This document shows, one piece after another, positions 25,022 to 47,836 of a DNA stretch of 64,000 bases. The DNA is from Acidimicrobiales bacterium. Its GTDB lineage: Bacteria > Actinomycetota > Acidimicrobiia > Acidimicrobiales > SHLQ01. The stretch covers positions 62,001-126,000 of the forward strand of contig JAHDEJ010000003.1 in assembly GCA_020628865.1 (NCBI GenBank). Direction: 5' to 3'. The notes beneath the pieces were generated by a model, which did not search any database, was not told where the DNA came from, and worked only from the letters and a program-made list of their open reading frames with translations. The position numbers and the translations under genes are program-made. How positions within the stretch are numbered: the stretch's first letter is position 1; every line of letters begins with the position of its first letter.

Positions 25022-25042
25022 CACCATCGTCCGGGAGCATGC

Positions 25043-27290: not shown

Positions 27291-27335
27291 ACCGCTCCAC
27301 CACATGGGTACCTGGTACCGATGTGGTGGTGCGGT
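27291..27335. terminator. 45-bp near-perfect palindrome between convergent genes
   Basis: Arms of 22 bases around a central T at 27313 pair at all but two positions: outer ACCGC/GCGGT, then CCACCACAT/ATGTGGTGG, then GGTACC/GGTACC. Its last base is the first base of the arylsulfatase stop codon. Likely bidirectional terminator; no T-run is seen. Confidence 0.6.
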
Positions 27336-29719: not shown

Positions 29720-29748
29720 TTGACGGCATGAGTACGTATTCATACGCT
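29720..29748 (+). promoter_or_regulatory. Promoter of the first SnoaL-like gene, with embedded LacI operator
   Basis: -35 TTGACG (29720-29725), 17-bp spacer, -10 TACGCT (29743-29748), then 6 nt to ATG 29755. The spacer holds the perfect dyad ATGAGTACGTATTCAT (29728-29743). The same layout is repeated before the lacI-type gene. Confidence 0.7.
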
Positions 29749-29754
29749 GCGGCC

Positions 29755-30723
29755 ATGCAGGGCTTCGATCCGAAATTTCGTGACCTTCCCGACTACATCC
29801 TCGGTATCACCAAGGAGATCTGGGAGGACCGTGGGCTCGACACGCTGCACGACTACTACACGCCGACGATCCCGGTCCGGTCTCCGGCTGGCGTCGTGGT
29901 CGGCAACGAAGGCGTGATCGCTGCCACGATGGCCACGCTGGCCGAGTTTCCCGATCGGCAGCTGCTCGGTGAGGACGTGATCTGGTCCGGAGACGAGACC
30001 GATGGCTTCCTGTCGTCGCACCGCATCCTGTCGACCGCCACCCACCTCGGAGACGGTCTCTACGGGCCGGCGTCCGGCACACGGTTCCAGTACCGGATCA
30101 TTGCGGACTGTGCGGCGAAGGACAATCAGATCTACGACGAGTGGCTGATCCGGGATCAGGCTGCGATCGTGCACCAGCTCGGGCTGGATTGCCGCACGTA
30201 CGCTCAGCAACAGATCGAGAAGGAGGGTGGCGTCGCGCAGGCGAGTCGCCCGTACACACCAGATCAGGAGCCGGGGCTGGTCTACACGGGCACGGGCAAC
30301 GGCGACGAACACGGTGAGCGCTACGCCGGTCTCCTCACGGACATCATGGCGGCCCGAGTGTCCTCGATCACCACGGAGTACGACCGCGCGGTTCACCTCG
30401 AGCTTCCCGGTGGCAGCAGCGGCCACGGGTGGGCGGCCGCTGACCGGTACTGGCTGGGGCTGCGCAGTTCGTTCCCGGACGCCACGTTCGCCGTGCATCA
30501 CACGATCGGGCGAAGCGATTCGGGTCGGCCACCTCGGGCGGCGCTGCGGTGGTCGCTCCACGGGTCCCACTCCGGCTGGGGCGCGTTCGGCGAGCCGAGC
30601 GGAGCGGATGTCTACGTGATGGGCATCAGCCACGCCGAGTTCGGCCCGAGCGGCGTGCACCGCGAATGGATCATGGTCGACGACACGGCGATCTGGAAGC
30701 AGATCCTGCTTCACCTGGGCTGA
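29755..30723 (+). CDS. SnoaL/NTF2-like two-domain protein
   Basis: A 322-residue protein with two NTF2-like halves: residues 1-150 (Trp-Glu-Asp opening helix, DYYTPTIPVRSP, YRIIADCAAKDNQIYDEWLIRDQ) and a second half ending in HREWIMVDDTAIWKQIL. SnoaL-like proteins are small barrels acting as cyclases, isomerases, dehydratases or ligand binders. It is the first of five in this locus. ATG 29755 is preferred over 29728, because the latter lies inside the operator and upstream of the -10 box; 29755 fits a leaderless transcript. It is controlled by the adjacent LacI-type regulator (inference from the shared operator). Confidence 0.72.
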   Translation: MQGFDPKFRDLPDYILGITKEIWEDRGLDTLHDYYTPTIPVRSPAGVVVGNEGVIAATMATLAEFPDRQLLGEDVIWSGDETDGFLSSHRILSTATHLGDGLYGPASGTRFQYRIIADCAAKDNQIYDEWLIRDQAAIVHQLGLDCRTYAQQQIEKEGGVAQASRPYTPDQEPGLVYTGTGNGDEHGERYAGLLTDIMAARVSSITTEYDRAVHLELPGGSSGHGWAAADRYWLGLRSSFPDATFAVHHTIGRSDSGRPPRAALRWSLHGSHSGWGAFGEPSGADVYVMGISHAEFGPSGVHREWIMVDDTAIWKQILLHLG

Positions 30724-30756
30724 TGCAGCTGTGCAGAACGTGCCCAAGCAAGATGC

Positions 30757-30786
30757 TTGACGGCAATGACTACGTATTCATAGAGT
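30757..30786 (+). promoter_or_regulatory. Promoter of the lacI-type gene, with embedded operator
   Basis: -35 TTGACG (30757-30762), 18-bp spacer, -10 TAGAGT (30781-30786), then 7 nt to ATG 30794. The dyad ATGACTACGTATTCAT (30766-30781) fills the spacer and matches the first operator at 15 of 16 positions. The regulator therefore likely represses itself. Confidence 0.7.
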
Positions 30787-30793
30787 GAGCGTG

Positions 30794-31846
30794 ATGACGG
30801 AGGCAGGGGGCCCCTCAACGGGGGACGACATCGACACCACAAGCGGCGACCGCCCGCGCAAACGTGTCACGTCCGTCGATGTGGCGGCCGAGAGTGGCTT
30901 CTCCCAGGCAACCGTCGCCCGGGCGTTCTCCTCGCCGCATCTCGTGTCCGACACCACCCGCGAACGGATCGCCGAGGTGGCCGAGGCGCTCGGATACGTG
31001 CCCAACGCGATCGCCCGGAGCCTCAAGTCCCAGCGGACGAACATCGTCGGCGCCGTGGTACCGGCCCGCGGCGAGTACTGGCAGCACGCCCTGACGGCGT
31101 TCTCCCGCCAGCTCGTGGAACGTGGACGCCAGCTGCTTCTGTTCAGCTTCGACGACGAACCGGACGACGCCGTGTTCACGGCGGTCGATCAGTACCGGCT
31201 GGATGGCCTGATCATGGCGTCCGCCCGGATCGGACAGCGCCACCTCGCACGGGGGCACGGCAGCGACACACCGGTCGTGGCCTTCAACCACCCGGCAGCA
31301 TCGGGCATCGTGCCATCGGTATCGGTCGACAACGAAGCGGGCACGGCCGCCCTGGCCGCCCATCTTCTCCACCAGGGCGTGGACTCGGTCCTGTTCGTCG
31401 GCGGTGTCGCAAGCACCTCCACCGATCAACAGCGATACCGGGGTGCAGCTCAGACGCTCGGTGCACACGGTGTTGCGGTCCCGTACCTCGAGGCGGGTTC
31501 CTTCTCGTACGACGCCGGTTACAAGGCGGCCGCCCACATTGCGGATCTCGACGACCGTCCTGCGGCCGTCATGGTCTCGGGCGACGAGCTCGCCTTCGGG
31601 GTGGTCGACGGGCTTCGCTCCAGCGGTCTTGACGTGCCGAGCGACCTGCTCGTCACCGGCTTCGACGGTCTTCCGCAGGCCAGTTGGGCCGGCTACGACC
31701 TGACCACGCTCGTCCAGAGCGTCGACGTCCTCGTCGAGCGCTCGATCGACATCCTGCTCGACGGCGAACACGCCCAAACCCCTCGCACGATCGTCGAACC
31801 CGGCACCGTCCGGATCGGCCGCACCACACGGAGAAGCAATGGCTGA
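30794..31846 (+). CDS. LacI-family transcriptional regulator
   Basis: A 350-residue regulator. The helix-turn-helix is [21 protein letters not shown] (about residues 25-45), followed by the hinge [14 protein letters not shown] and a periplasmic-binding-protein-like sensor domain ([22 protein letters not shown]). It senses a small molecule, normally a sugar or polyol, and releases DNA on binding. ATG 30794 fits the leaderless promoter better than GTG 30785. The perfect dyads at 29728 and 30766, with a central CG as in LacI sites, are its probable operators. The downstream hisD-like gene overlaps it by 8 bp, so it is co-transcribed with the catabolic genes. Confidence 0.9.
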
Positions 31847-33119
31847 AGTACTGAAGGACGCAAAGGCGAAAGCCAAGCATGGCGCGAACACGGAGCTGAC
31901 CGACAACGTCCGTGCGATCATCGCCGACATCGAGACACGCGGCGACGCCGCCGTTCGGGAGCTGAGCGAGAAGTTCGACTCCTGGAGTCCGGAGAGCTTC
32001 AAGCTGTCGGAAGAGCAGGTCGCCGACATCGTCGCTGGCGTCGACCCGCAGACGATCGACGACATCCGTTTCGCTCAGACCCAGATCCGTCGATTCGCCG
32101 AGGCTCAGCTGGCCACGCTGAGCGACGTCGAGATCGAAACGCTGCCGGGGGTCGTTCTCGGCCACCGCAACATTCCGGTGTCGAGCGTTGGGTGTTATGT
32201 GCCCGGCGGCCGCTACCCGATGGTGGCGTCGGCCCACATGTCCGTCCTCACGGCCAAGGTCGCCGGCGTGCCCCGAGTGATCGCCATGACCCCGCCGATC
32301 GCCGGCGAGATCCCGGCCGAGACGGTCACGGCCATGCACCTCGCCGGCGCCGATGAGATTCACATCCTTGGCGGCATCCAAGCGGTGGCCTCGCTCGCCA
32401 TCGGCACGGAGACGATCGCCCCTGTCGACTTCATCGTCGGGCCCGGCAACGCCTACGTGGCGGAAGCCAAGCGGCTGCTCTTCGGTCGCGTCGGCATCGA
32501 TCTTCTGGCCGGGCCGACGGAAACCCTGGTCGTCGCCGACGACACGGTCGACGCCGAAATGTGTGCCACCGACCTGCTCGGCCAGGCCGAACACGGACCC
32601 ACCTCACCAGCGGTGATGCTCACGACCTCACGGTCCCTCGGCGAGGCGACCATCGCCGAAGTCCATCGTCAGTTGGAGACGCTGGCGACTGCCGACATCG
32701 CCTCGGTCAGCTGGGCCGACTACGGCCGGGTGATTCTCTGCGAGGACAACGCCGAGATGCTCAAGATCGCCGAGGAACTCGCCTTCGAGCACGTCCAGAT
32801 CATGACCAACGACGACGACTACTTCTTCGACAACATGGTCAACTATGGAGCGCTGTTCCTCGGCCCGATGACCAACGTGTCGTACGGCGACAAGGTCATC
32901 GGCACCAACCACACGCTGCCGACGCAGGGAGCGGCCCGGTACACGGGCGGCCTGTGGGTCGGGAAGTTCATCAAGACGGTCACGCACCAGCGGGTGACCA
33001 ACGCCGAGTCCAGCGTGACGATCGGGGAGTACTGCAGCCGACTGTGTGCCATCGAGAACTTCGCCGGGCACCAGGCGCAAGCCGACATCCGGGTTCGCCG
33101 TTACAGCGAGAGCGTCTGA
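31839..33119 (+). CDS. HisD-family dehydrogenase, HpsN (sulfopropanediol dehydrogenase)-like
   Basis: A 426-residue zinc-dependent alcohol-to-acid dehydrogenase. Family marks are [39 protein letters not shown] (zinc ligands) and [27 protein letters not shown] and HQRVTNAE read much more like HpsN, which oxidises 2,3-dihydroxypropane-1-sulfonate to sulfolactate, than like biosynthetic HisD (judged from memory). There are no his genes around it, supporting a catabolic role. ATG 31839 has GGAGAAGCA before it and overlaps the regulator gene by 8 bp. A non-sulfonated polyol is equally possible. Confidence 0.82.
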
Positions 33120-33860
33120 ATGGCCGGCATCGCACTCGTGACCGGTGGAAGCGGCGGCATCGGCAGTGCCATCTGCCGGCGTCTCGCTGCGGACGGCTTC
33201 ACCGTCGTCGTCGGCTACAACTCGGCCGCCGACCGGGCTGAAGCCCTCGTCGCCGACCTGCCGGGCGACGATCATGTTGCGCTCCGAGTCCCGGTCACCG
33301 ACAGCGATGGCCTCGCCGCCGCAGCTGCAGCCGTGAGCGACCGGCATCCGGCTCTCGATGTGCTCGTGAACTGTGCAGGTGTCACCCGTCCCGTGGCCCA
33401 CGATGATCTCGACGGCTTGGACGACGAGACGTTCGATTGGATCCTGCAGACCAACGTCCGCGGCCCGTTCGCCACGGTTCGGGCCTTCCGCCGGCTCCTC
33501 GAGGCAGCTGCCGCACCCGTCGTCGTCAACATCTCGTCGGTCGCCGCAGTGACCGGGCAGGGTTCCAATGTCGCCTACTGTGCGTCCAAGGCCGCAGTCG
33601 ACAGCCTCACCCGATCGTTGGCTCGTGCACTCGGTCCGGCGATTCGCATGGTCTCGGTCGCACCCGGCTGGGTTGTGGGCGAATACGCCGATCGCATGGA
33701 TCCGGGGATGCTTGCAACACAGCGGGCGGAGACGCCCCTCGGTCGCCTGGCCACTCCGGCCGACGTCGGCGCAGCCGTCAGTGCCGCCGTAGTCGATCTT
33801 CCGTTCACCACTGGCGCAATCATCAGCGTCGACGGCGGCCGACCGCTGGGAGCGGCATGA
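33120..33860 (+). CDS. Short-chain dehydrogenase/reductase (FabG-like)
   Basis: A 246-residue SDR: cofactor site VTGGSGGIGSA at residues 8-18, NCAG, Ser in NISSVAA, Tyr-Lys in YCASKAA, and the ISVDGG ending. The ATG directly follows the stop of the HpsN-like gene, so the two act in one operon. Known hps gene clusters also pair HpsN with SDR-type dehydrogenases that interconvert the stereoisomers of the substrate, and this could be the equivalent (inference). Confidence 0.87.
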   Translation: MAGIALVTGGSGGIGSAICRRLAADGFTVVVGYNSAADRAEALVADLPGDDHVALRVPVTDSDGLAAAAAAVSDRHPALDVLVNCAGVTRPVAHDDLDGLDDETFDWILQTNVRGPFATVRAFRRLLEAAAAPVVVNISSVAAVTGQGSNVAYCASKAAVDSLTRSLARALGPAIRMVSVAPGWVVGEYADRMDPGMLATQRAETPLGRLATPADVGAAVSAAVVDLPFTTGAIISVDGGRPLGAA

Positions 33861-35008
33861 GTTCAGAATCCCTCCACCTGTCCGACTCCCAGCCGCCGGC
33901 CGACCGCACTGCGGCAATCGACGAGCGAATCATCGAACCGTGCGACTTCGTCGCCGACACCGAGGCGTTCGTGGATGTTCGCATTCCCCACTCGAAGGGG
34001 AAGGCCAGCTACTCGTTCATCGGTCCGGGCGTTTCTCAGAACGCCGACCAGAAGATCAATCTCACGATTCCGCACGGGTTCAATGTCGGGGCGGCCACCC
34101 TCCCGCATGGCGCCGTCAACAATCCGCACCTGCACTTCACTGCCGAAGTGTTCGTCTGCACCCGAGGCGAGTTCAGGATCACCGTGGGGGAGCACAGCGA
34201 CCAGCACATCGACATCGGTCCGGGCACCATCTTCTCGGCCCCCACGTGGGTCTTCCGAGGGTTCGAGAACCTCGGTGCTGACGACGGCTGGATGTTCGCG
34301 GTGCTCGGTGGCGACGACACGGGCGGAATCCTCTGGGCACCCCACGTACTCGAAGCGGCGGCCGGCACCGGCCTCTACCTTGCTCCCGACTACTCCGTGC
34401 TCGACGCAACGGCGGGCGACGACGTCAGCAACGTCATCGAACCGCTGGCGCCCGAAGAGCTCTCGTGGGTCCAGCGCTACACCGACGACGCCCTCCTCGA
34501 CCGCCGCGTCACCCCTGATGACCTGGCCTGGAGCGATCAGGCGCTGCTGTCCGCGACGATCGCCAGCCCAGCAGTCGAACTCGCTCCCGTGCTCGGCCAC
34601 GGCATGACCGAGGACCGTCAGCACGAGCGTCCCATCGCCAATCCGCACGGTTTCTCCATCGAGTGGATGCGGCTGCGACCCGGGGCCAGTACCGGCGAGC
34701 ACCGCATCGACGACACGCAGGTTCTCCTGATCGCGCAGGGTTCGATCGAGGTGGCGTTCGGCGCCGGCGATCTCGCCGATCGGCGACGCCCGGCAGACGG
34801 TTCCGTCGTCTCGGTTCCCGAGGGCATGTGGCGCACCTTCACGAATGTCGGTGACGACGATGCCCTGGTGGCAGTCGTGTGCGGCGGTGAAGCGCCGAGC
34901 CGAATCGAATGGTCTACGTCCATCGTTTCGCTTGCGCGCGACGCCGGATGGAGCCGCGACCACTCCGGCTACATCGCTCCCGCAAGACTCGTGGGGGACG
35001 GCACATGA
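33857..35008 (+). CDS. Bicupin protein
   Basis: A 383-residue protein with two cupin barrels. The first has the metal motif NNPHLHFTAEVF (H-x-H-x4-E) near residue 93, followed by GEFRITVGEH. The second, around residue 280, has TGEHRIDDTQVLL with one clear His and ends in a VPEGMWRTFTN turn. Bicupins include dioxygenases, isomerases and decarboxylases; this one resembles none closely enough for me to name. The ATG overlaps the SDR stop by 4 bp. It is presumed to act on an intermediate of the locus. Confidence 0.8.
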   Translation: MSSESLHLSDSQPPADRTAAIDERIIEPCDFVADTEAFVDVRIPHSKGKASYSFIGPGVSQNADQKINLTIPHGFNVGAATLPHGAVNNPHLHFTAEVFVCTRGEFRITVGEHSDQHIDIGPGTIFSAPTWVFRGFENLGADDGWMFAVLGGDDTGGILWAPHVLEAAAGTGLYLAPDYSVLDATAGDDVSNVIEPLAPEELSWVQRYTDDALLDRRVTPDDLAWSDQALLSATIASPAVELAPVLGHGMTEDRQHERPIANPHGFSIEWMRLRPGASTGEHRIDDTQVLLIAQGSIEVAFGAGDLADRRRPADGSVVSVPEGMWRTFTNVGDDDALVAVVCGGEAPSRIEWSTSIVSLARDAGWSRDHSGYIAPARLVGDGT

Positions 35009-35130
35009 CCGTCCGCCCAACCCGTCGCCGCAGCGACAACACCCGATCGACGTCGAAGGAGTGGGCCGCGATGCGTGGACCGCTCGACTCGAACACAGCA
35101 ATACCAACCAACACCCTAGGAGGGGTTCAC

Positions 35131-36603
35131 ATGAGCAAGTACAGGCACAAGGGGTGGCGTCTACTCGCCATGTTCCTTGCAATCGGACTCGTCGCCGCCG
35201 CATGCGGCAGCGACGCATCCGACGTTGTCGACAGCGCAACCGACGCCGTCGAAGAGGCAGCAGACGACGCAGCAGAAGCTGTTGACGACGCGATGGAAGA
35301 TGACGCCATGGAGGAGGAGGAACACTCCGAGGACGCCATGGAAGAAGACGACGCGATGGAAGATGACGCCATGGAAGAGGTCGCAATGATCTCTGACGAG
35401 TGCAACATCCCCAACCCGGCTGAAGAGGTCGAGATCGACGTGATGGGTTGGGAATTCCCGATCATCACCCAGTACGCCGAGGAGCTCGAGGAGTGCGAGG
35501 ACGGCAACTACTCATTCAACGTGCAGTTCCTTGACTCGTCCGAGGCCCAGGACGCCATGCGTCTCGACGGTGCGACCGGCTCTCCGGAGTTCGAGATCTA
35601 CCAAGGCTCCAACAGCTTCATCATCGAGCTGGCCAACTCCGGCGCACTCATGCCGCTGAACGACCTCATCGACAAGTACGGCGCCGAGTACGGCCTCGAC
35701 CAGATCGACCAGGCCTTCTTCGACTTCGCCTCCAAGGACGGCGACATCTACGCCATCCCGATGGTGTCGAACACGATGCACGTGTTCTACAACGAGCCGA
35801 AGCTCGCCGAGATCGGTGTCGACGTTCCGACGACCTTCGAAGAGGCGCTCGCCGCATGCCCGGACATTCAGGCAGCCGGCTACGACACGGGCTTCCTCTA
35901 CATGCTCTCCGCCGGTTGGGCCTGGAGCATCGAGTTCAGCAGCGTGCTGGGATCGCTCGGCGTTCGCTTCGTCGACGAGACGACCGGCCAGCCGAACTTC
36001 AACAGCCCGGAAGGCATCGAAGCCGCCAACATCCTGGTGGACATGCTCGAGACCTGCGGCGGCACCGCTGCCGGCACGTACAGCACCGATGACATCCAGG
36101 CTGCGTTCCAGACGGGCGAGATCATCCTCGGCCACACCTGGGCATCGCGTGCTGCGGCAATGGACGACCCCGAGGCGTCGACCGAGGTGGGCAACATCCA
36201 GTTCGCCCCGGCGCTGAGCAGCGGTGGCGACATCCTCGCCTCCCCGGCGTACATCGACGGCTACGGCATTCCCGTTGGCGTCGATCCCGAGATCGTCGAC
36301 GAGATCTTCCTTGCGATCCTCGCCGCATCGGACGCCGAGAGCCAGGAAGCTGCAGCCGAGTTCGGTCTCGTGACCCGGTCGGGCGTGACCAACGCAAACG
36401 GCCCCCGTGACGGCGCCGCTGCCGAGGCCAGCCTCGTGAACGGCCGTGGCCCGGATCTTCCGACCGCCGCTGCCGCGATCGCCCGCGCCAAGATCGGTGA
36501 CGCGCTGATCACGATCCTCGACGGCACCTCCGTCGAGGACGCACTGGCCGCTGCCGAAGCTGCGTACCTCGAAGAGGCCGAAGCCCAGGGGCTCCTGAGC
36601 TAA
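35131..36603 (+). CDS. Sugar-type (CUT1) ABC transporter substrate-binding lipoprotein
   Basis: A 490-residue family 1 binding protein. The lipobox is VAAAC (C25). Residues about 28-88 are an extremely acidic linker built from repeats of DAMEDDAMEE. The binding domain follows, with two conserved Cys near its start (SDECNIPN, ECEDGNYS) and a Trp-rich ligand region (GWAWSIEFSS). It delivers the solute to the permeases downstream. ATG 35131 has a strong CTAGGAGGGG site; an in-frame ATG at 35005 would add 42 residues before the signal peptide and is rejected. The LacI-type control and gene content suggest a polyol or sugar-like solute. Confidence 0.88.
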   Translation: MSKYRHKGWRLLAMFLAIGLVAAACGSDASDVVDSATDAVEEAADDAAEAVDDAMEDDAMEEEEHSEDAMEEDDAMEDDAMEEVAMISDECNIPNPAEEVEIDVMGWEFPIITQYAEELEECEDGNYSFNVQFLDSSEAQDAMRLDGATGSPEFEIYQGSNSFIIELANSGALMPLNDLIDKYGAEYGLDQIDQAFFDFASKDGDIYAIPMVSNTMHVFYNEPKLAEIGVDVPTTFEEALAACPDIQAAGYDTGFLYMLSAGWAWSIEFSSVLGSLGVRFVDETTGQPNFNSPEGIEAANILVDMLETCGGTAAGTYSTDDIQAAFQTGEIILGHTWASRAAAMDDPEASTEVGNIQFAPALSSGGDILASPAYIDGYGIPVGVDPEIVDEIFLAILAASDAESQEAAAEFGLVTRSGVTNANGPRDGAAAEASLVNGRGPDLPTAAAAIARAKIGDALITILDGTSVEDALAAAEAAYLEEAEAQGLLS

Positions 36604-36615
36604 TCGAAACCATTC

Positions 36616-36678
36616 ACCCGGTGATCGCCGGGTACTTGCTCCACGACCGGGTGGGCTGCGTCAGCGGTCCACCCGGTC
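36616..36678 (+). other. Two intercistronic hairpins between binding protein and permeases
   Basis: A short hairpin (36616-36633, 6-bp stem ACCCGG/CCGGGT) is followed by a stronger one, GACCGGGTGG at 36645-36654 pairing perfectly with CCACCCGGTC at 36669-36678 over a 14-nt loop. No T-run follows. Such hairpins after a binding-protein gene commonly protect its mRNA or attenuate read-through into the permeases. Confidence 0.55.
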
Positions 36679-36706
36679 AGGGGCCGACCGTGGGGGGATA
36701 TTTCTC

Positions 36707-37573
36707 GTGACACGACGAACGTTCTGGGGTTTCACGATCCCGAGCGTGATCATCATGCTCGTCTTGATGGTGGTCCCGCTGGTGACGACCATCTGGTTGT
36801 CCTTCAACGAGCTGTTCCTCCGGGACATCAACAACCCGACGTGGATCGGGTTCGACAACTACCGCGAAGTCCTCGGCGACGAGGAGTTCTGGGCGGCCGT
36901 GCGGTTCACGTTGCTCTTCGTGGCCGTCACCGTGCCGATCAACATGATCTTCGGCCTCGGCGTGGCCCTTCTCCTCGACAAGGTCGGGCGCGGACGCTCG
37001 ATCTACCTCGCCGCACTGCTGCTGCCGTTCATCGTCACGCCGGTGGTCGGTACCCTCATCTACAAGGACCTCTTCGACCGGGGCGGACTGCTCGCCTGGC
37101 TGTGGGAGGTCGCCACCGATGAGCCCTTCCTCATCACGTCTGGCAACGTGAAATGGCTCATCATCGTCCAGGCGATCTGGCATGTGATGCCGTTCGCCAT
37201 GATCACCTTCTTCGCCGGGCTCCAGACGCTGCCCGAGGACCGCGTCGAGGCCGCTTCCATCGACGGCGCCGGCTACTGGCGACAGCTCTGGCACGTGACG
37301 CTTCCACACCTGCGGGTGCTCATCCTTTTTGTCGCCCTGATCTCCATCATGGACGCCTACCGCGTGTACGACAGCGTGTTCGTGTTCGCCGGTGACCGGT
37401 TCACCGATGCGCACACCCTGCAGGTGTACACGGTCGAGGTCGCCGTCGATCCGCAGATCGGGCGGGTCGGCAAGGGCAACGCCATCGGCGTCCTCAACGT
37501 CATCGGCATCTTCGTGGTGCTGATCCCCTTCCTGGTCATCAGCTACCGGGACCAGATCCGGGAGCGCACCTGA
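36707..37573 (+). CDS. Sugar ABC transporter permease (MalF/UgpA type)
   Basis: A 288-residue permease with six helices and the EAA-loop AASIDGAGYWRQLWHVTLPHLR. It forms the channel with the next gene. The start is GTG at 36707, 8 nt after a GGGGGGA ribosome binding site. It is separated from the binding-protein gene by two hairpins, consistent with lower expression of the permeases. Confidence 0.92.
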   Translation: MTRRTFWGFTIPSVIIMLVLMVVPLVTTIWLSFNELFLRDINNPTWIGFDNYREVLGDEEFWAAVRFTLLFVAVTVPINMIFGLGVALLLDKVGRGRSIYLAALLLPFIVTPVVGTLIYKDLFDRGGLLAWLWEVATDEPFLITSGNVKWLIIVQAIWHVMPFAMITFFAGLQTLPEDRVEAASIDGAGYWRQLWHVTLPHLRVLILFVALISIMDAYRVYDSVFVFAGDRFTDAHTLQVYTVEVAVDPQIGRVGKGNAIGVLNVIGIFVVLIPFLVISYRDQIRERT

Positions 37574-38649
37574 TGAACGAGCAGACTCTCCGAAGCCGAA
37601 TCGGCGTCCACGGCACGCTGCTGATCCTCGTCGTGTGGAGCGTTGTGCCGTTCCTGTGGGCATTCCAGACGTCCATCAAGTTCACTCGCGACGTCGCGTC
37701 GAAGACACCCGTGCTCTGGGGTTACGAGACGACGGCGAGCGCCTACAACTCGTTCTGGATGAAGGACGACGACATCCAGATGTGGAACGTGGCCGCCTAC
37801 ATCGCCGTGATCGCTGCGGTGGCGGCCTTCTTCGGCTGGTCCGGCCGTCGGCTGGAGAACGGGCGGGCCTTCTTCTTCGCTGCAGCCGGCGTCATCGCCT
37901 TGGGTCTCTGGCAGTTCCCGAACATCTGGCGAGCCGAGGACGAATACGACTTCCTCATCAACAGCATCATCGTGACCGTGCTGACCATGCTGATCTCGTT
38001 GTCGATCGGCCTTCTGGCCGGCTACGGGCTCGCCCGATACACGGGTATCTCCGGCGCCGTGATCCTGATCATTGCCCTCGGGTTCCGGGCTCTGCCCCGT
38101 TCGGCCTTCGTGCTGCCGTACTTCTTCGGCGCCACCCGGATCGATCAGTGGCTCGAGGATCGCGGTATCGCCGAGTGGGACTTTCCCCTGATCGATGTGC
38201 CGTTCATCGACGAGTTCGGGGTGCTCGACTCGAAGATTGCCATCGTCATGGCCCTCGTGGCGGTCAACCAGCCGTTCACGATCTGGATGTTCCGCTCGTT
38301 CTTCATGGACGTGCCCAAGGAGATCGAGGAGGCCGCCATGATGGACGGGGCCACCCGGATCCAGGCGTTCCGCAAGGTCATCATTCCGATCATGTGGCCG
38401 GCCATCATCGCAACGGGGCTGTTCACGCTGTTGCTCGCGTACAACGAGTACCTCTTCGTTCGTGTGCTCGCACCGACCGAGTGGACGCTTCCGGTCGCCA
38501 TCGTCTCGCTGACGGGCGGCGAAAGCTCGAGGACGATCACCGAGGGCGCGGCCGCCTCCGTCTCGATCACACTTCCGATCGTGATCGTGATCATCCTCTT
38601 CCAGAAGCATCTCGTGAAGGGCCTCGGGGCCGGAGCGGTGAAGGGATGA
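37573..38649 (+). CDS. Sugar ABC transporter permease (MalG/UgpE type) with extra membrane insertion
   Basis: A 358-residue permease, about 80 residues longer than usual. After the first helix and the IKFTRDV segment there is an insertion (about residues 72-115) with two further hydrophobic stretches (NVAAYIAVIAAVAAFFGW and FFFAAAGVIALGLW). The normal core follows, with the EAA loop EEAAMMDGATRIQAFRKVIIP. The ATG overlaps the previous stop by one base (TGATG). The insertion could bind an accessory subunit or change topology. The reading frame is intact. Confidence 0.9.
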   Translation: MNEQTLRSRIGVHGTLLILVVWSVVPFLWAFQTSIKFTRDVASKTPVLWGYETTASAYNSFWMKDDDIQMWNVAAYIAVIAAVAAFFGWSGRRLENGRAFFFAAAGVIALGLWQFPNIWRAEDEYDFLINSIIVTVLTMLISLSIGLLAGYGLARYTGISGAVILIIALGFRALPRSAFVLPYFFGATRIDQWLEDRGIAEWDFPLIDVPFIDEFGVLDSKIAIVMALVAVNQPFTIWMFRSFFMDVPKEIEEAAMMDGATRIQAFRKVIIPIMWPAIIATGLFTLLLAYNEYLFVRVLAPTEWTLPVAIVSLTGGESSRTITEGAAASVSITLPIVIVIILFQKHLVKGLGAGAVKG

Positions 38650-39680
38650 CCGACCGCCTCCAGGCCGCCAAGGACGCAGTTCTCGCCTACAAGGCGGCGC
38701 TCGACGCCGCCGCGCCCGAGGCCCTGTCCATGGTGTTGTCGGACCACCTGGCGTCCGATCATCTGTGGCGGGGCGTCCGTCCGTTCTATGAGCTCACCGG
38801 CGTCGACGCGCTCGTCGAGGAGTTCTGGAGACCGTTGCGGGCGGCGTTCACGCCGGTGCAGCGCCGAGCGGACGTGTTCTTCGCCGGCGACAACGTGGTC
38901 GACGACGGAGCCTCGGTCTGGGTCTGCGAGATGGGGCACCTGCTCGGGCTCTTCGACCGGCCTTGGCTCGACATCCCGCCGACGGGTCGAATGTGTTTTC
39001 TGCGCTATGCCGAATTCAATCGGGTCGTCGACGGCGTCATCACCGAGTCCTCCATGTTCATGGACATCATCAGCGTGATGCGACAGGCCGGGCACTACCC
39101 GCTGCCGCCGCAGACGGGTTCGTCCCACATCCATCCGGGCCCCATGACGCACGACGGCCTGCTCCACGGAGCGAGCGACCCGGACGAGGGCACGACCACC
39201 ATGGATCTGGTGCATCGGATGGTGGCCGACCTCAGCGCCGCCAACGACGTCGCCAACGCCACCGGCGACAACCGGGTGCACCCGGACGTGCTCCGTGCAA
39301 CCTGGCACGACGACATGATCTGGTCGGGACCCGAAGGCATCGGCGCCACGTACACCGTCGGGCGATACCAGCAGCAACACCAGTATCCGTTCCGGTTCAA
39401 CCTGTCGGGCAAGACCTTCAATGGCCACGTGGCCCGCTTCGCCGAGGGCAACTACGCGGCGTTCTTCGGCTGGCCCAACCTGACGAACGTCGCCGAAGGC
39501 GGCTTCCTCGGCATGACCGGTGGAGGAACACCGGCCGACATGCGCGTCGTCGATGTCTACCGACGCGATGGGGAGAAGCTGGCCGAGAACTGGGTCTTCA
39601 TCGACCTGCCGCACTGGCTGGCGCAGCAGGGGCTCGATGTGCTCGAACGAATGCGACAACTCAACGGAGAGGCCTTCTGA
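38646..39680 (+). CDS. SnoaL/NTF2-like two-domain protein
   Basis: A 344-residue protein with two NTF2-like halves. The first contains PWLDIPPTGRMCFLRYAEFN; the second contains WSGPEGIGATYTVGRYQQQHQ and ends ENWVFIDLPHWLAQQGLDVLERM. These motifs recur in the other SnoaL-like proteins of the locus. Conserved Asp, His and Trp residues could form an acid-base site, but no reaction can be assigned. The ATG overlaps the permease stop by 4 bp, so an enzyme or binding protein is translated directly with the transporter. Confidence 0.78.
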   Translation: MTDRLQAAKDAVLAYKAALDAAAPEALSMVLSDHLASDHLWRGVRPFYELTGVDALVEEFWRPLRAAFTPVQRRADVFFAGDNVVDDGASVWVCEMGHLLGLFDRPWLDIPPTGRMCFLRYAEFNRVVDGVITESSMFMDIISVMRQAGHYPLPPQTGSSHIHPGPMTHDGLLHGASDPDEGTTTMDLVHRMVADLSAANDVANATGDNRVHPDVLRATWHDDMIWSGPEGIGATYTVGRYQQQHQYPFRFNLSGKTFNGHVARFAEGNYAAFFGWPNLTNVAEGGFLGMTGGGTPADMRVVDVYRRDGEKLAENWVFIDLPHWLAQQGLDVLERMRQLNGEAF

Positions 39681-40219
39681 TGACAGGCGCACGGCCGGAA
39701 CAGGCAGCACTCACCCGGGACACCGACCTCTCCAAGACCGACGCCACGCGTGCGGTCATCGAGGGAATGGTCGATGGACTGAACGACCACCGGATCGGGG
39801 ACATCGGCGAGTTCTTCGCCGAGACGTTCCGCTGGATGGGCAACGAGGGGTGCGGCACGAAGAACGGGCTGACGGAGTTTCAGGACAACTGGCAGAAGCC
39901 GTTCCAAGCGGCGTTCCACGACAAGGTGTGTGTTGACGAGGCCCGCTTGTTCATGGGGGAGTGGGCGGCAGCGTTCGGACGGCAGGAGGCCACCCATGGC
40001 GGTGTGTTCATGGGCATCGAGCCGACCGGAAAACGGATCGAGATTCGCTACATGGACTTCTGGAAGGTCGTCGATGGCCGGATCGAGGACAACTGGGTGA
40101 TGGTCGACTTTCCGCATGTGCTTGCGCAGCTGGGGGTCGACGTGTTCGACGGTGAGGGCTGGGAGGCCTTCGACCGGGGTGATCGGGTGCCACCGGCACC
40201 GGAACGGAGTGGGAAATGA
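39680..40219 (+). CDS. SnoaL/NTF2-like single-domain protein
   Basis: A 179-residue protein with one NTF2-like domain: FFAETFRWMGNEGCGTKNG, GIEPTGKRIEIRYMDFWKVVDGRI and DNWVMVDFPHVLAQLGVDVFDG. It is the single-domain member of the five in this locus and overlaps the previous gene by 1 bp. Its last five codons and stop lie inside the first copy of a 59-bp tandem repeat, so the C-terminal tail (ERSGK) may be a product of repeat insertion. Confidence 0.78.
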   Translation: MTGARPEQAALTRDTDLSKTDATRAVIEGMVDGLNDHRIGDIGEFFAETFRWMGNEGCGTKNGLTEFQDNWQKPFQAAFHDKVCVDEARLFMGEWAAAFGRQEATHGGVFMGIEPTGKRIEIRYMDFWKVVDGRIEDNWVMVDFPHVLAQLGVDVFDGEGWEAFDRGDRVPPAPERSGK

Positions 40220-40333
40220 TCCGCAGAGCAGACCGAGCGCAGCGAATCTGCGAGTGCCGGGAACGGAGTGGGAAATGATCCGCAGAGCAGACCGAGCGCA
40301 GCGAATCTGCGAGTGCCGGGAACGGAGTGGGAA
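40201..40333. repeat. 59-bp tandem repeat, two copies plus 15 bp
   Basis: Copies start at 40201 and 40260 and are identical over 59 bases; a third begins at 40319 and matches for 15 bases before the transporter ATPase gene. Each contains an inverted pair CGCAGA/TCTGCG. The first copy includes a stop codon. The copies add about 118 bases between the SnoaL-like gene and the ATPase gene. Confidence 0.8.
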
Positions 40334-40336
40334 GTA

Positions 40337-41506
<1,170 letters not shown>

Positions 41507-41517
41507 ACGGAATCTCC

Positions 41518-42663
41518 ATGCAGCGCAGCACCGAACGCATCCTCACCACGCATGTCGGCAGCCTGCCGCGGTCCCAAGCAGTGACCGACGGCATCTTCGC
41601 CATCGAGCGCGGCGAGGCCATCGATGTCGAGGCCCATTGCCGGACGGTCGCCGCAGCGGTTGGCGATGTGGTGGCCCGCCAGGTCGCCGTTGGCGTCGAC
41701 GTCGTCAGCGATGGAGAGATGAGCAAGCTCAGCTACGCGACCTACATCAAGGATCGCATCACGGGCTTCGAGGGCGACAGCCCCCGACGCGCACCACAAG
41801 ACCTCGAGGAGTATCCCTCGTTCCTCGAGCGACAGGCGAAGACCGGGGGCACCCCCACCTACGCTCGCCCGCAGTGCGTCGGGCCGATCGAGGTCAAGGA
41901 CACGCGCCCGTGTGAGGAGGATCTCGAGAACTTCCGCGAGGCCGTCGATGCGCACGGACCGGCCGAGGGGTTCATGAACGCAGCGTCGCCGGGAGTGATC
42001 GCGCTGTTCCAGCCGAACACCCACTATCTCGACCACCAGACCTACCTGGAGGCCCTCGCGGAGGCGATGCGCGTCGAGTACGAAGCGATCGTCGAGGCCG
42101 GCTTCATTCTCCAGCTCGATTCTCCCGATCTCGGGCTGGGCCGGCACATGATGTTCAAGGGCCAGCCGGACGAGGAGTACGAGCGGCTCGCGAACATCCA
42201 CGTCGAAGCGCTCAACCATGCGGTGCGCAACATCCCGGCCGAGAAGATGCGCATGCACATCTGCTGGGGCAACTACGAAGGCCCGCACACGTGCGACGCC
42301 CCGATGTCGCAGGTCCTCCCCATCGCGCTTCGAGCGAAGCCGCAAGGCCTCCTGTTCGAGTCGTCCAACCCTCGTCACGCGCACGAATGGAAGGACTTCG
42401 CTGCTGCGGACATCCCGGACGACAAGGTGCTGATTCCCGGCGTCATCGACTCGACGACCCACTTCGTAGAGCACCCCGAACTCGTGGCCCAACGGATCGA
42501 GCGCTTTGCCGACATCGTTGGACGCGAACGCGTCATCGCCGGCACCGACTGCGGTTTCTCGACGTTTGCGGGGTACGCGGGCATCGACCCGGAGATCGCC
42601 TACGCGAAGTTGGCGGCGATGGCCGAGGGCGCGGCGATTGCGTCCTCGCGTCTGTGGGCCTGA
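41518..42663 (+). CDS. MetE C-domain-like zinc thiol methyl/alkyltransferase
   Basis: A 381-residue protein with the fold of the catalytic half of cobalamin-independent methionine synthase. Zinc ligands are visible as H and C in MRMHICWGNYEG, Glu in LLFESSNPR and Cys in AGTDCGFSTF. N-terminal THVGSLPR is a family mark. It lacks the N-terminal half of MetE, so it is not a full methionine synthase; small relatives include YxjG/YxjH-type enzymes and epoxyalkane:coenzyme M transferase (similar length). It probably moves a methyl or alkyl group to or from a thiol. It starts 11 bp after the transporter ATPase gene, within the LacI locus. Confidence 0.82.
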   Translation: MQRSTERILTTHVGSLPRSQAVTDGIFAIERGEAIDVEAHCRTVAAAVGDVVARQVAVGVDVVSDGEMSKLSYATYIKDRITGFEGDSPRRAPQDLEEYPSFLERQAKTGGTPTYARPQCVGPIEVKDTRPCEEDLENFREAVDAHGPAEGFMNAASPGVIALFQPNTHYLDHQTYLEALAEAMRVEYEAIVEAGFILQLDSPDLGLGRHMMFKGQPDEEYERLANIHVEALNHAVRNIPAEKMRMHICWGNYEGPHTCDAPMSQVLPIALRAKPQGLLFESSNPRHAHEWKDFAAADIPDDKVLIPGVIDSTTHFVEHPELVAQRIERFADIVGRERVIAGTDCGFSTFAGYAGIDPEIAYAKLAAMAEGAAIASSRLWA

Positions 42664-42674
42664 GCGCCGGCAGC

Positions 42675-43655
42675 GTGGGGGACGCAGCACTCGTCTCGGC
42701 CAAAGCGGCGCTGATCGAGTCGCCGTTTCCGTCGGCGGAACGCCGCAACGCCGACATGAGGTTGTATGCCGGCTCGCCCGTTGGGGAGCACCGGGGTGCC
42801 GACGCGGTGGACGAGCATCTCGTTGCGCCCGTTGATGCCGCGCTCCAATCACCGGCATGGGAACCGGACGTGGTGCTCGCCGGAGCATCGGTGACGAGCG
42901 GTGCACCTGAGCGTTGGGTCGCAGCTCACGGTCACCTCGTGGGCAGGATGCGTCGGCCGCTCTGGGGCGTCCCGGCGGCGTCCGCTGATGAGGCCACCCT
43001 GCGAATCGGCGTTTTCCATCGTGTGGTCGGTCGAGGCGATGCGTGGGAGATCGACGAGAGCCGCGTCCTCTTCGATCTGCCCGCGTTGGCCGCGCAGGCG
43101 GGAATCGACCTGTTCCCACCATTCGCCGGACGCCCGGGTCGCCCCGCCGCACCAGCCAGCGGTCCCGCCGCCGCACCGGCACTCGGGCCGGCCGACGCCA
43201 CGGCCGCAACGCTTCAGTTGGTCGAGGACATGTTGGGCGGCTGCAACCGGCTCGTCGACGGCTCGCTGGAATCCATGGGGATGTCGGCGTACTGGCACGA
43301 CGAGATGCGATGGCATGGTCCCCACGGAATCGGTTCGACCCACGGGTTCGACGAGTTCCAGCGGGACGCCCAGGGGCCATCCGTTGCCAGCTTCCCGAAC
43401 CGGCGGGGCGGGCATCATCGAGCACGCTTCGCCGACGGCCATCTGGCCGCATTCACCGGCTGGCCCTCGCTGCGCGGCACCTTCGATGGCGTTGCGTTTC
43501 GCGGGATCGAGCCCACGGGCGGTCCCATCGGCCAGAACATCATGGATTTCTACGTGCGCAGAGACACCCATCTGCTCGAAAACTGGGTACTCATCGACCT
43601 CATCGACTTCGCATCCCAGTGCGGCGTCGACCTTCTGGAAGGACTGCTCCCATGA
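42675..43655 (+). CDS. SnoaL/NTF2-like two-domain protein
   Basis: A 326-residue protein. The second half has the locus motifs WHGPHGIGSTHGFDEFQ, GIEPTGGPIGQNIMDFY and ENWVLIDLIDFASQCGVDLLEG. The first half is more degenerate and is joined by an Ala-Pro-Gly-rich linker (about residues 148-172). The start is uncertain: GTG 42675 is used here, GTG 42654 would overlap the MetE-like gene by 10 bp, and neither has a convincing ribosome binding site. Confidence 0.72.
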   Translation: MGDAALVSAKAALIESPFPSAERRNADMRLYAGSPVGEHRGADAVDEHLVAPVDAALQSPAWEPDVVLAGASVTSGAPERWVAAHGHLVGRMRRPLWGVPAASADEATLRIGVFHRVVGRGDAWEIDESRVLFDLPALAAQAGIDLFPPFAGRPGRPAAPASGPAAAPALGPADATAATLQLVEDMLGGCNRLVDGSLESMGMSAYWHDEMRWHGPHGIGSTHGFDEFQRDAQGPSVASFPNRRGGHHRARFADGHLAAFTGWPSLRGTFDGVAFRGIEPTGGPIGQNIMDFYVRRDTHLLENWVLIDLIDFASQCGVDLLEGLLP

Positions 43656-44698
43656 CCGTTGATCACGCCGCGCTGCGCGAGGTGCTCACGCCGATCCGGT
43701 CGGCGATGTACGACTGGACCCCGGACGGGGTTCGTCAGGCCGTGCTTTCGAGCTGCACGCCCGATGCCCTCTTCCAGCTCGCCCATCCGTTCAACACGCT
43801 TGGAGGACCGGACGCGTTCGTCCAGGAGGCGCTCGACGTCCTGCATCACGCCTGGCCCGACGTGGAGCGTCGGGACTACATCGTCACGGCAGGGCCCGAC
43901 TCCTATGGCGGTCACTGGGTCGGATGCGCGGGTGACTACACCGGAACTTTCACCCGGCCATTTCTTGACATCCCACCAACCGGACATCAGACGTCGATGC
44001 GATTTCACGAGTTCTACCGCATCGAAGACGGCCGCATCACGGAGATGCAGGCGTTGTGGGACATCGCCGAGGTCATGATTCAGGCCGGCGCCTGGCCGAT
44101 GGGTCCCAGCCTCGGCCGCGACTGGCGGGCGCCAGCGCCGGCGACCATGGACGGCATCCGCACCGGACCGCGCGACGACGCACTGTCAGAGCGGAACAAA
44201 GCCCACGTGATCGACATGCTGACCGACATGGTCAAACACCCCGCCGAGCCGGTGGAGGCGATGCGCCTGGAGCACTGGTGGCACGAGAAGTTCTCCTGGT
44301 ACGGGCCCGGAGGCATCGGTACCGCACGGGGAATTTCCGGCTTTCGCCATTGGCACCAGATCCCGTTCCTTCGCGGCATGCCCGATCGTTCGGGCGGGTA
44401 CCTGGGGGAGACCTACTTCTTCGGCGACGGGCCGTACGTTGGCGAAACCGCGTGGCCCGGCATGACGATGCACCTTTCCGGCGACGGCTTCCTCGGCATC
44501 GTGCCCACCGACACCCATGTGACGGGGCGCAGCCTCGACTTCTGGCGAGTCGAAGACACGCCAGACGGCCCCAAGATCCGCGAGAACTGGGTGCTCTTCG
44601 ACGTGCTCCACGTCTGGGACCAGCTCGGGGTGAACGTGTTGGACCGGATGCGTGAGTTCACATCGGCCCGACGCGTCGCCACGGAGGCGCTGACCTAG
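43652..44698 (+). CDS. SnoaL/NTF2-like two-domain protein
   Basis: A 348-residue protein, fifth of its kind in the locus. The first half carries PFLDIPPTGHQTSMRFHEFY, the second WYGPGGIGTARGISGFRHWHQ, GIVPTDTHVTGRSLDFWRVED and ENWVLFDVLHVWDQLGVNVLD. It aligns end to end with the protein at 38646. The ATG overlaps the previous stop by 4 bp. It is the last gene of the locus; its stop codon shares the bases CTAG with the stop of the convergent aminotransferase. Confidence 0.78.
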   Translation: MTVDHAALREVLTPIRSAMYDWTPDGVRQAVLSSCTPDALFQLAHPFNTLGGPDAFVQEALDVLHHAWPDVERRDYIVTAGPDSYGGHWVGCAGDYTGTFTRPFLDIPPTGHQTSMRFHEFYRIEDGRITEMQALWDIAEVMIQAGAWPMGPSLGRDWRAPAPATMDGIRTGPRDDALSERNKAHVIDMLTDMVKHPAEPVEAMRLEHWWHEKFSWYGPGGIGTARGISGFRHWHQIPFLRGMPDRSGGYLGETYFFGDGPYVGETAWPGMTMHLSGDGFLGIVPTDTHVTGRSLDFWRVEDTPDGPKIRENWVLFDVLHVWDQLGVNVLDRMREFTSARRVATEALT

Positions 44699-45849
44699 GC
44701 CAGGTTGCGGGCCGCCAGATGGTCGTCGAGCGCACCGAGGCACTCGGGGACGTTGGATCGCCCGATGCCGATCCGGAAATGGTCCATCGGTACGGCCGCC
44801 AACGTCGACTCGTAGACGAAACTCGGGAGCAGTAGCACGCCGTCCTGCTCGACCGCGGTGGTGCAGAAGTCGGCGGCGGTGCCGGGACCGAGCCAGCGTG
44901 GGAACGCAACGCAGCCACCGTCAGGCGATGCGTAGTCGAACAAGCCGTCATGTCGGTCCATGAACTCCCGAACCACGACATCGTTCGCCGCACAGATCGA
45001 CCGGTTCCGATCGAGGATGGCCGCGCTGTTGCGAAGCGCAACAGTGGCGAGCACTTCGCTCGGCCCGGCGTTGCAGATGCTCGTGTAGTGCTTGGCTCGT
45101 TCGAGGCGAGCCAGCGCGTCGCGGTCCTTCGAGGCCACCCAGCCCACACGCAAACCCGGGAGACCCCACGCCTTCGACATGACCGAGATGCTCAGCGCCC
45201 GATCGCTCAGCTCGGCGGCCGCCGGCAGCGTGGCGTCCGGGTCGAGCTCGACACCCCGGTACACCTCGTCGCTGACGACACGAACGCCTCGTGCATCGCA
45301 GAGTTCCAGGAACGATCGCCAGGTCTGCTGATCGGGAACGAACCCGGTTGGGTTGTTCGGAAAGTTGACCGACACGAGCGACGTCTCCGGGCGCAGCATC
45401 GCCTCGAATCGATCGAGGTCGAGAGTCCAGGTCCTGCGCCCTCCAGCGTCCGACCACAGCGGCAGGCCCTCGACGTCGACTCCCGCTGCGACCGGCACCG
45501 ATTCGATCGATTGGTAGTTGGGGACGTTCACGATCACGTGGTCGCCCGGTTCGGCGAAGAGTTGCATGGCCCAGAACAGCGGCTCGCCGGCGCCGGCGAA
45601 TGCCAACGTGTCCTCCATGTCCACGCCGTCGTAGAGGCCGGCGATGGCGTCCCGCAGCGGCTCGGTTCCCCACGTTGGCGTGTAGCCGAGGTGCACGTCG
45701 TCAAGATCCGGCGGGTTCTCGTCCAGCGCCAGCAGGTCCCGGACGGTCATCGACTCTGCGTCGGAGGCGGTCAGATGCCACTCAGCCGAGAACTCCCACT
45801 TCGAGAAGTAGGTCTCCAACGCAAAATCTGGCAGAACGAGCCGGCTCAT
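44695..45849 (-). CDS. Class I/II PLP-dependent aminotransferase
   Basis: A 384-residue fold-type I enzyme. The PLP lysine is in ISVMSKAWGLPGLRVGW, with the NFPNNPTG and SDEVYRG motifs of the family. The N-terminus ETYFSKWEFSAEWHL recalls the capreomycidine-synthase/arginine-type subgroup, though the substrate cannot be fixed. ATG 45849 follows a strong GGAGGAACC site; the frame extends 12 codons upstream without support. It is divergent from an esterase gene, and its stop overlaps that of the SnoaL-like gene. Confidence 0.87.
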   Translation of the reverse strand: MSRLVLPDFALETYFSKWEFSAEWHLTASDAESMTVRDLLALDENPPDLDDVHLGYTPTWGTEPLRDAIAGLYDGVDMEDTLAFAGAGEPLFWAMQLFAEPGDHVIVNVPNYQSIESVPVAAGVDVEGLPLWSDAGGRRTWTLDLDRFEAMLRPETSLVSVNFPNNPTGFVPDQQTWRSFLELCDARGVRVVSDEVYRGVELDPDATLPAAAELSDRALSISVMSKAWGLPGLRVGWVASKDRDALARLERAKHYTSICNAGPSEVLATVALRNSAAILDRNRSICAANDVVVREFMDRHDGLFDYASPDGGCVAFPRWLGPGTAADFCTTAVEQDGVLLLPSFVYESTLAAVPMDHFRIGIGRSNVPECLGALDDHLAARNLA

Positions 45850-45905
45850 GGGTTCCTCCGGGGCGGGTTGCGTCAGTGTACGCATGGGAGCGAGTCGTCA
45901 GCGGC

Positions 45906-45911
45906 TACTGT
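45906..45911 (+). promoter_or_regulatory. -10 box of the esterase gene
   Basis: TACTGT, 6 nt before ATG 45918, without a ribosome binding site; leaderless pattern. Confidence 0.45.
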
Positions 45912-45917
45912 CCGCTC

Positions 45918-46844: not shown

Positions 46845-46858
46845 CGGTTCGTGTCTGG

Positions 46859-47803: not shown

Positions 47804-47809
47804 CGCCGA

Positions 47810-47815
47810 ACGCTA
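47810..47815 (-). promoter_or_regulatory. -10 box of the IPNS-like oxygenase gene
   Basis: Minus-strand TAGCGT, 6 nt before ATG 47803. It lies in the 33-bp gap after the DMT transporter gene. Confidence 0.45.
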
Positions 47816-47836
47816 GCCCTTGGCAGGCGATCGGGG

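Follow-up and report, generated by a model that had tools for sequence, protein, structure and literature searches.

Why would a bacterium keep five genes for SnoaL-like proteins, a group mostly known from biosynthesis, interleaved with a sugar-type importer and dehydrogenases? This arrangement is found in an Acidimicrobiales bacterium (assembly GCA_020628865.1), within a stretch of 64,000 nucleotides of contig JAHDEJ010000003.1 (positions 62,001 to 126,000), hereafter the window, in whose numbering all coordinates are given unless a locus or contig number precedes them. Between 29755 and 44698, 14 genes lie on a single strand; on one side they are bordered by a sulfatase gene (27335-29668) running divergently, and on the other by an aminotransferase gene (44695-45885) that converges on them. 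The set is seen again in distant bacteria, in many of which a common operator sequence accompanies it. We read the locus as a dedicated catabolic operon under its own LacI-family regulator, whose substrate would be a small molecule resembling a sugar or cyclitol and perhaps methylated, a reading to which we give a probability of about 0.58. The genes and putative operators are the following:

29728..29743, no strand: putative LacI-family operator ATGAGTACGTATTCAT, a near-palindrome with one mismatched pair, 11 bp before the S1 start codon
29755..30723, plus strand: S1, two-domain SnoaL-like protein, distant from S2-S5 (Pfam)
30766..30781, no strand: second putative operator ATGACTACGTATTCAT, a near-palindrome with one mismatched pair, 3 bp before the lacI start codon
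30785..31846, plus strand: LacI-family repressor (Pfam and NCBIfam profile matches)
31839..33119, plus strand: HisD-superfamily dehydrogenase on the HpsN side, that of sulfopropanediol and dihydroxypropanesulfonate (DHPS) dehydrogenases (PF00815; nearest solved chain 8wwe)
33120..33860, plus strand: short-chain dehydrogenase/reductase (SDR) (Pfam)
33857..35008, plus strand: bicupin (Pfam; H89, H91 and E95 invariant, numbered from 33863)
35131..36603, plus strand: solute-binding protein, SBP_bac_1 (Pfam; start read from the frame)
36707..37573, plus strand: ABC permease, MalF-like (Pfam)
37573..38649, plus strand: ABC permease, MalG-like (Pfam)
38646..39680, plus strand: S2, tandem SnoaL/NTF2-like protein, query of the genome scan (Pfam, predicted structure)
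39680..40219, plus strand: S3, single C-type SnoaL domain (Pfam, paralogue comparison)
40268..41506, plus strand: ABC ATPase, MalK-like (Pfam; GTG start at 40268, ATG at 40337 possible)
41518..42663, plus strand: MetE-like (Meth_synt_2) protein (Pfam; conserved H247-x-C249 and C345)
42675..43655, plus strand: S4, tandem SnoaL-like protein, rare (near-cut-off Pfam scores)
43652..44698, plus strand: S5, tandem SnoaL-like protein (Pfam)

The first line of evidence is the recurrence of the set. A scan of genome contigs with S2 returned 337 relatives, and the counts given here cover the best 80 loci, that is, the closest relatives only. S1 is present in 48 of these loci, an SDR gene in 41, HisD (counted at ≥50% identity) in 40, MetE-like and LacI genes in 39 each, the cupin in 38, S5 in 30, MalF in 27, S3 in 21 and S4 in 2. 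At least three of the six core families (S1, S3, S5, HisD, MetE and cupin) occur in 45 of the 80 loci, one or two in 15 and none in 20, some of the last being short contigs. A further count covers the loci, also 45 in number, whose flanks reach 8 kb or more on each side: HisD and MetE are found together in 19 of these, one of them in 9 and neither in 17. The window's own 5.36-Mb genome provides a base rate, with a single match to HisD at E≤1e-100 and a single match to MetE at E≤1e-60; the set recurs far more often than this. Gene order is shuffled between groups, and it is therefore a set that is conserved, not a string.

The first-pass annotation of this DNA had proposed that several SnoaL-like proteins belong to one dedicated locus, and the recurrence of the set in many genomes, together with the common operator, bears this out. 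It had named scattered SnoaL-like genes in an unconserved order, or an assembly of unrelated operons, as the outcome that would speak against the idea: the order is indeed shuffled and S2 stands without core genes in 20 of 80 loci, yet the set as a whole recurs above the base rate. Two particulars do not generalize. The CUT1 importer is no constant member, MalF being present in 27 of the 80 loci and a sodium symporter taking over elsewhere, and five SnoaL genes are not the norm, given the rarity of S4. The simplest alternative, that SnoaL genes are common and their neighbours random, can point to 22 SnoaL_2 matches in the window's own genome and to the variation of gene order by group, but joint recurrence across classes and one common operator leave this already disfavoured explanation barely credible. 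Elsewhere in the same genome, two open frames (C52:126196-126834 and C70:15315-16001) each contain two consecutive SnoaL_2 matches; neither was reported by the S2 search of that genome at E≤1e-20.

By record title, the S2 loci belong to Acidimicrobiales, Granulosicoccaceae, Woeseiaceae, Hyphomonadaceae, Sphingomonads, SAR324, Bacteroidetes and a planctomycete. Such titles can mislead: locus L043 is titled uncultured Acidobacteria, probably wrongly, since its genome, G158, is listed under the same family as G154, a Hyphomonadaceae genome. Plasmids carry the full or nearly full set in Ruegeria, Octadecabacter, Marinovum (SDR not annotated) and Paracoccus (without the MetE-like gene), and other annotated plasmid records of named isolates carry a reduced one. 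Orthology across loci is tight at the level of sequence: Ruegeria S3 is matched in 40 other loci, 25 of them at 66-93% identity, and the HisD proteins of the window and Ruegeria are 63% identical. Of 148 genomes sampled from the window's own class, 2 have S2, and in each of them HisD and MetE share its contig (76% and 78% identity in the second genome), a co-occurrence that rests on two genomes, one being the window's own; so sparse a distribution fits patchy transfer. A divergent version of the set is also present in an archaeon, the haloarchaeon Halobellus limi. Its plasmid (L091:15863-22256) has five consecutive genes annotated as ester cyclases, four long and one short, accompanied by a MetE-like gene, an importer and an aldehyde dehydrogenase.

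The second line of evidence comes from the operators. The sequence ATGANTACGTANTCAT is a candidate operator for the LacI protein. The search pattern was derived from the site at 29728, where it matches by construction; with up to three mismatches allowed, a scan of the window returned that site and the one at 30766 only, compared with a mean of 0.09 matches in shuffled sequences and no instance of two in 100 shuffles. The window-type motif is found at eight sites in seven further loci, five of them titled Acidimicrobiales, before S1 or between S1 and lacI. Proteobacteria have a different palindrome, TTGCATTCGAATGCAA, with a GTCAA variant, ahead of hisD, metE, S2, S5, cupin and SDR genes; sites of this type also lie before sodium symporter, TonB-receptor, hydrolase (ABH) and serine-dehydratase genes, and a one-base variant before lacI. 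Nineteen whole genomes bearing S2 contain 28 such sites with at most one mismatch, distributed over 15 genomes, and not a single site for the reversed control pattern. At 27 of the 28 a homologue of a pathway gene starts within 350 bp. The remaining site, with one mismatch, is in Microbulbifer (L133:7072-7523), where it stands apart from the cluster, 22 bp ahead of an isolated gene for a single-domain SnoaL protein. Wider scans with a degenerate motif returned 7 of 105 Hyphomonadaceae, 2 of 369 gammaproteobacterial and 5 of 385 alphaproteobacterial genomes, a few genomes being shared between scans. Pathway genes adjoin the site in 11 of these 14 genomes; of the other three, G758 (L137, a 3.8-kb contig) has transporter genes only, and G642 and G331 (L136 and L139, imperfect variants) have nothing related. 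Near-palindromes ahead of both the operon and the regulator gene fit a LacI-regulated operon, with binding of the repressor as the prediction.

All 14 genes do run in one direction, as had been noted. Overlaps of 1-4 bp, claimed for the array, exist at five of the 13 junctions: SDR/cupin (4 bp, from ATG 33857), MalF/MalG (1 bp), MalG/S2 (4 bp), S2/S3 (1 bp) and S4/S5 (4 bp). At the remaining eight, LacI and HisD overlap by 8 bp, HisD and SDR abut, and six gaps measure 11-122 bp (with the ATPase started at GTG 40268).

What could the SnoaL-like proteins be doing? The five genes announced at 29755, 38646, 39680, 42675 and 43652 have exactly these coordinates and frames free of internal stops, and the estimate of about nine NTF2-like domains comes out at nine: two SnoaL stretches each in S1, S2 and S5, one in S3 and two in S4. 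S1, S2, S3 and S5 exceed the gathering score of Pfam SnoaL or SnoaL_2. S4 falls narrowly below both cut-offs (27.3 versus 28.4 and 26.8 versus 27 bits) and is similar to S2 and S5 domain by domain; its C-domain is matched by Pfam, and its N-half is assigned by similarity to the N-domains of S2 (33%) and S5 (31%). The motifs described as common to four of the proteins were located by pattern match alone: GPxGIG is present in S2, S4 and S5 (GNEGCG in S3) and PPTG/EPTG in S2-S5, and the E/D-N-W-V..D..Q.G ending holds for S2-S5 and fails for S1 (looser forms DEWL, REWI). S2, S4 and S5 are paralogous N-domain with N-domain and C-domain with C-domain, S3 is of the C-type, and S1 is distant.

This kinship bears on the possibility of a single hetero-oligomeric enzyme with the SnoaL proteins as its subunits, in which S3 and the tandem S2 and S5 would form one active site. 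Domain-by-domain paralogy, a free C-type domain in S3, and the overlaps of S2 with S3 and of S4 with S5 would all suit such an enzyme. Yet S2 occurs without S1, S3 and S5 in 20 of 80 loci (counted within the fetched stretches), and in a plasmid stretch of Vibrio europaeus it is the only tandem SnoaL protein, beside transporters; we consider a single enzyme unlikely.

The predicted structure of S2 (predicted local distance difference test, pLDDT, 95.7) has two NTF2-like domains, and the SnoaL-like chain 3kkg superposes on the N-domain with Z 12.0 and a root-mean-square deviation (rmsd) of 2.6 over 140 residues. The top Foldseek matches are the two-domain polyether epoxide hydrolases MonB and Lsd19, nearly over the whole chain (best E 6e-10). 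They share the two NTF2-like domains with S2 but superpose poorly over the whole length (template modelling score 0.29-0.33, rmsd about 16-17 A), are 13-15% identical and have another gene context. The SnoaL/DnrD methyl ester cyclases of anthracycline synthesis, which are single-domain and biosynthetic, likewise share the NTF2-like fold; the proteins here differ from them in being tandem, multicopy and part of a catabolic-looking locus, and they miss the 200-bit cut-off of NCBIfam NF033407 (SnoaL_meth_ester), for which S3 scores 34.4 and S2 16.2 bits, with S1, S4 and S5 unmatched at E≤0.01.

Among the companion enzymes, the HisD protein passes the cut-offs of PF00815 (448.7 bits) and TIGR00069 (439 bits), and its nearest solved chains are DHPS and sulfopropanediol dehydrogenases (E 1.3e-109 to 1.1e-104), the best being the (R)-DHPS dehydrogenase 8wwe, at 370 bits versus 259 for the best histidinol dehydrogenase. 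The window's genome has two more hisD-like genes. A sulfonate pathway, in which the HpsN-type enzyme would oxidize dihydroxypropanesulfonate or cysteinolate, finds its support in these nearest relatives and in the tripartite ATP-independent periplasmic (TRAP) transporter genes that flank the plasmid loci L102 and L103, albeit outside the set. The same enzyme, however, stands here beside SnoaL, cupin and MetE-like genes and a CUT1 importer or a sodium symporter, a company that sets it apart from the HpsN sulfopropanediol 3-dehydrogenase; the importer has a sugar-type binding protein, the lower pathway resembles a lactonase and a pyruvate aldolase, and the annotated plasmid loci name no sulfolyase, no profile search for one having been made. 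A sulfonate as the substrate is very unlikely.

The importer has the make-up of a CUT1 system by Pfam: SBP_bac_1, two BPD permeases and a MalK-type ATPase with OB domain. The closest solved relatives of the binding protein are acarbose/maltose-, sorbitol- and further sugar-binding proteins. The MetE-like protein is 381 aa long, with an HxC...C pattern conserved among its relatives. Cobalamin-independent methionine synthase (MetE) and epoxyalkane:CoM transferase are the known systems closest to it. It shares the Meth_synt_2 family and the HxC...C pattern with them, but differs in its short length and stays far below every listed NCBIfam MetE cut-off (at best 99.8 versus 406 bits). In a Bacteroidetes-titled metagenome-assembled genome (L036:3523-9242), S2 is followed by a serine dehydratase, a protein with AprA methyltransferase-2-like domains and a further SnoaL protein; the methyltransferase-like protein may be a substitute for the MetE-like one. 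In the bicupin, the metal-type residues H89, H91 and E95 are invariant across 37 sequences. Its model (pLDDT 90.9) matches oxalate decarboxylases (Z 23.2, rmsd 6.1, 280 residues) and the dioxygenase YxaG (Z 22.1, rmsd 2.3, 234 residues), with many seed globulins among the matches. Having a fold in common does not by itself settle the reaction of S2 or of the bicupin.

Genes that replace one another between loci suggest what the pathway does. Among the 45 loci with at least three core families, with neighbour types assigned by sequence cluster, CUT1 is present in 22 and a sodium symporter in 13, never both, and neither in 10; an amidohydrolase-2 gene is found in 17 and an SMP-30 gene in 5, never both; an HpcH/HpaI aldolase gene is found in 13 and an RraA-like one in 10, with both in a single locus. 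Such mutual replacement hints at a pathway that includes import, the hydrolysis of a lactone and an aldol cleavage. The solved chain nearest to the amidohydrolase is 4dlf, which we take to be an L-fucono-lactonase, and the best solved relatives of the HpcH protein are HpcH/HpaI aldolases, including a dehydro-deoxy-glucarate aldolase. The RraA-like protein matches two solved chains weakly, neither named carboxy-hydroxy-oxoadipate aldolase.

Non-phosphorylative sugar-acid pathways consist of a dehydrogenase, a lactonase, a dehydratase and a pyruvate aldolase. The loci resemble them in having a LacI regulator alongside genes for an SDR, a lactonase-family protein and HpcH/HpaI, but have the SnoaL array, the MetE-like protein and the bicupin in place of an IlvD- or enolase-family dehydratase, which is absent from the 25 commonest of the 116 Pfam families assigned to 76 of the 119 neighbouring open reading frames that had no label. 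Three other directions were set aside. RraA and amidohydrolase-2 proteins occur in ring cleavage of the gallate/pyrone-dicarboxylate type; because the amidohydrolase is nearest to 4dlf and RraA has two weak chain matches, this is no longer our first choice. A link to dimethylsulfoniopropionate was suggested by SBP56 genes near the Marinovum and Phaeobacter piscinae sets, just 2 of 94 loci; Marinovum also has a DmdA-like gene, which is matched less well in L022 (41%) and L074 (26%). A glycoside link, suggested by an ADP-ribosylglycohydrolase gene that adjoins or follows S5 (L128, 89-1582), is confined to two Hyphomonadaceae genomes among the loci compared. Upstream of the cluster in a Hyphomonadaceae locus (L124:4456-9364) we observe galT, galK, ADP-ribosylglycohydrolase and MGH1-like glycosidase genes.

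From the gene content we infer the following reactions, their order and the class of substrate. The operon's own LacI protein would repress it. Uptake of a polyhydroxylated small compound would fall to the CUT1 importer or, among relatives, to a sodium symporter that is often joined by a TonB receptor. The SDR would oxidize an alcohol, and the HpsN-type dehydrogenase would convert a primary alcohol to a carboxylate in two NAD-dependent steps. The MetE-like, zinc-type protein would transfer a methyl or alkyl group to a thiol; since this protein, with its conserved HxC and C, is a core member, the substrate is probably methylated. The SnoaL-like proteins may act as C-O lyases, isomerases or hydratases, replacing the IlvD- or enolase-family dehydratases of known sugar-acid routes, and the bicupin may act as an isomerase or oxygenase that depends on a metal. 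The pathway of the relatives would end with a hydrolase of the lactonase type, either amidohydrolase-2 or SMP-30, and a pyruvate aldolase, either HpcH/HpaI or RraA-like.

Several observations weigh against this catabolic reading. The 80 loci are the closest relatives of S2, and even among them S2 occurs in 20 fetched stretches, short contigs included, without any core family, and in 17 of the 45 fully flanked loci without HisD and without MetE. Kinship of the loci weakens the replacement statistics, in which only the transporter contrast looks far from chance, and lineage confounds them as well, the loci titled Acidimicrobiia or Acidimicrobiales among the 45 all having CUT1. In the window's genome the hydrolase has no close counterpart (24% identity at best) and the HpcH match reaches only 32%, which leaves the lower pathway of that genome unaccounted for. 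One cluster, L074, contains an MR_MLE-type dehydratase resembling cis-3-hydroxyproline dehydratase. The proteobacterial operator was not found in 10 of 12 tested Vibrio, Bacteroidetes-titled, Roseobacter and other loci, the other two having one like-site each (Ruegeria L090 at 16864 and Marinovum L102 at 17812), and the descent of the window motif and the proteobacterial palindrome from one LacI lineage is a kinship that we only infer.

The best clue to the substrate is a serine branch seen in some relatives. In two Hyphomonadaceae-type loci (L046/L107 and L049) a serine ammonia-lyase gene and a hydrolase gene lie under a common divergent operator; in L036 a serine ammonia-lyase gene comes after S2, and in Vibrio europaeus the two are two genes apart. 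A glycine-transporter-family gene shares an operator with the hydrolase gene in L037, where it was recognized by 44% identity, the copies in L046 and L049 having been recognized by Pfam. These genes would suit an amino-acid-bearing cyclitol, a mycosporine-like amino acid or gadusol. Mycosporine-like amino acids and gadusols are methoxylated cyclohexenone sunscreens of marine life, and their chemistry, with a methoxy group, a CH2OH and glycine or serine set free, would call for enzymes of the MetE-like and HpsN-like kinds. On the other side, most loci lack the serine dehydratase, which 4 of the 94 compared have, and the RraA-like protein has no match named as the expected oxoadipate aldolase. 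Such a substrate is distinctly unlikely; because of the serine branch we keep it as the boldest reading, and it is a long shot that this cluster encodes a complete catabolic route for these compounds, which would be the first. Were it so, SnoaL-like enzymes would be responsible for cutting off the amino-acid arm and dehydrating the ring, the MetE-like protein would take off the methoxy methyl, the HpsN-like enzyme would oxidize the hydroxymethyl group, the hydrolase would open the ring and the aldolase release pyruvate, with the co-regulated genes handling serine and glycine.

Upstream of the array, the sulfatase divergent from S1 (777 aa, minus strand) is preceded by a gene for an alkyl-sulfatase-like metallo-beta-lactamase protein (25817-27136, plus strand); neither of these two shows any sign of belonging to the array. 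Oligopeptide-type ABC transporter genes with an SDR gene (21508-25795, plus strand) adjoin these sulfatase genes. Beyond S5, convergent aminotransferase, 2-oxoglutarate-Fe(II) oxygenase and EamA transporter genes occupy 44695-48790 on the minus strand.

Full-text searches of open-access literature aimed at this gene set, with most subscription journals and all preprints outside their coverage, turned up no description of it. What is delimited here is a whole regulon and not a single gene: four orthologous SnoaL-like families with a dehydrogenase, a cupin and a MetE-like protein, travelling jointly between bacterial classes and partly on plasmids. The LacI-type operator is the new element of this analysis, and its 16 bp provide a search handle by which carriers are easy to find and an inducer easy to screen for. 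Named carriers were isolated from coral, seawater, a saltern and aquaculture, and also from soil, which suggests that the substrate is likely widespread, common in the sea and not confined to it. If the SnoaL array is indeed catabolic, it would represent a new use of the fold.

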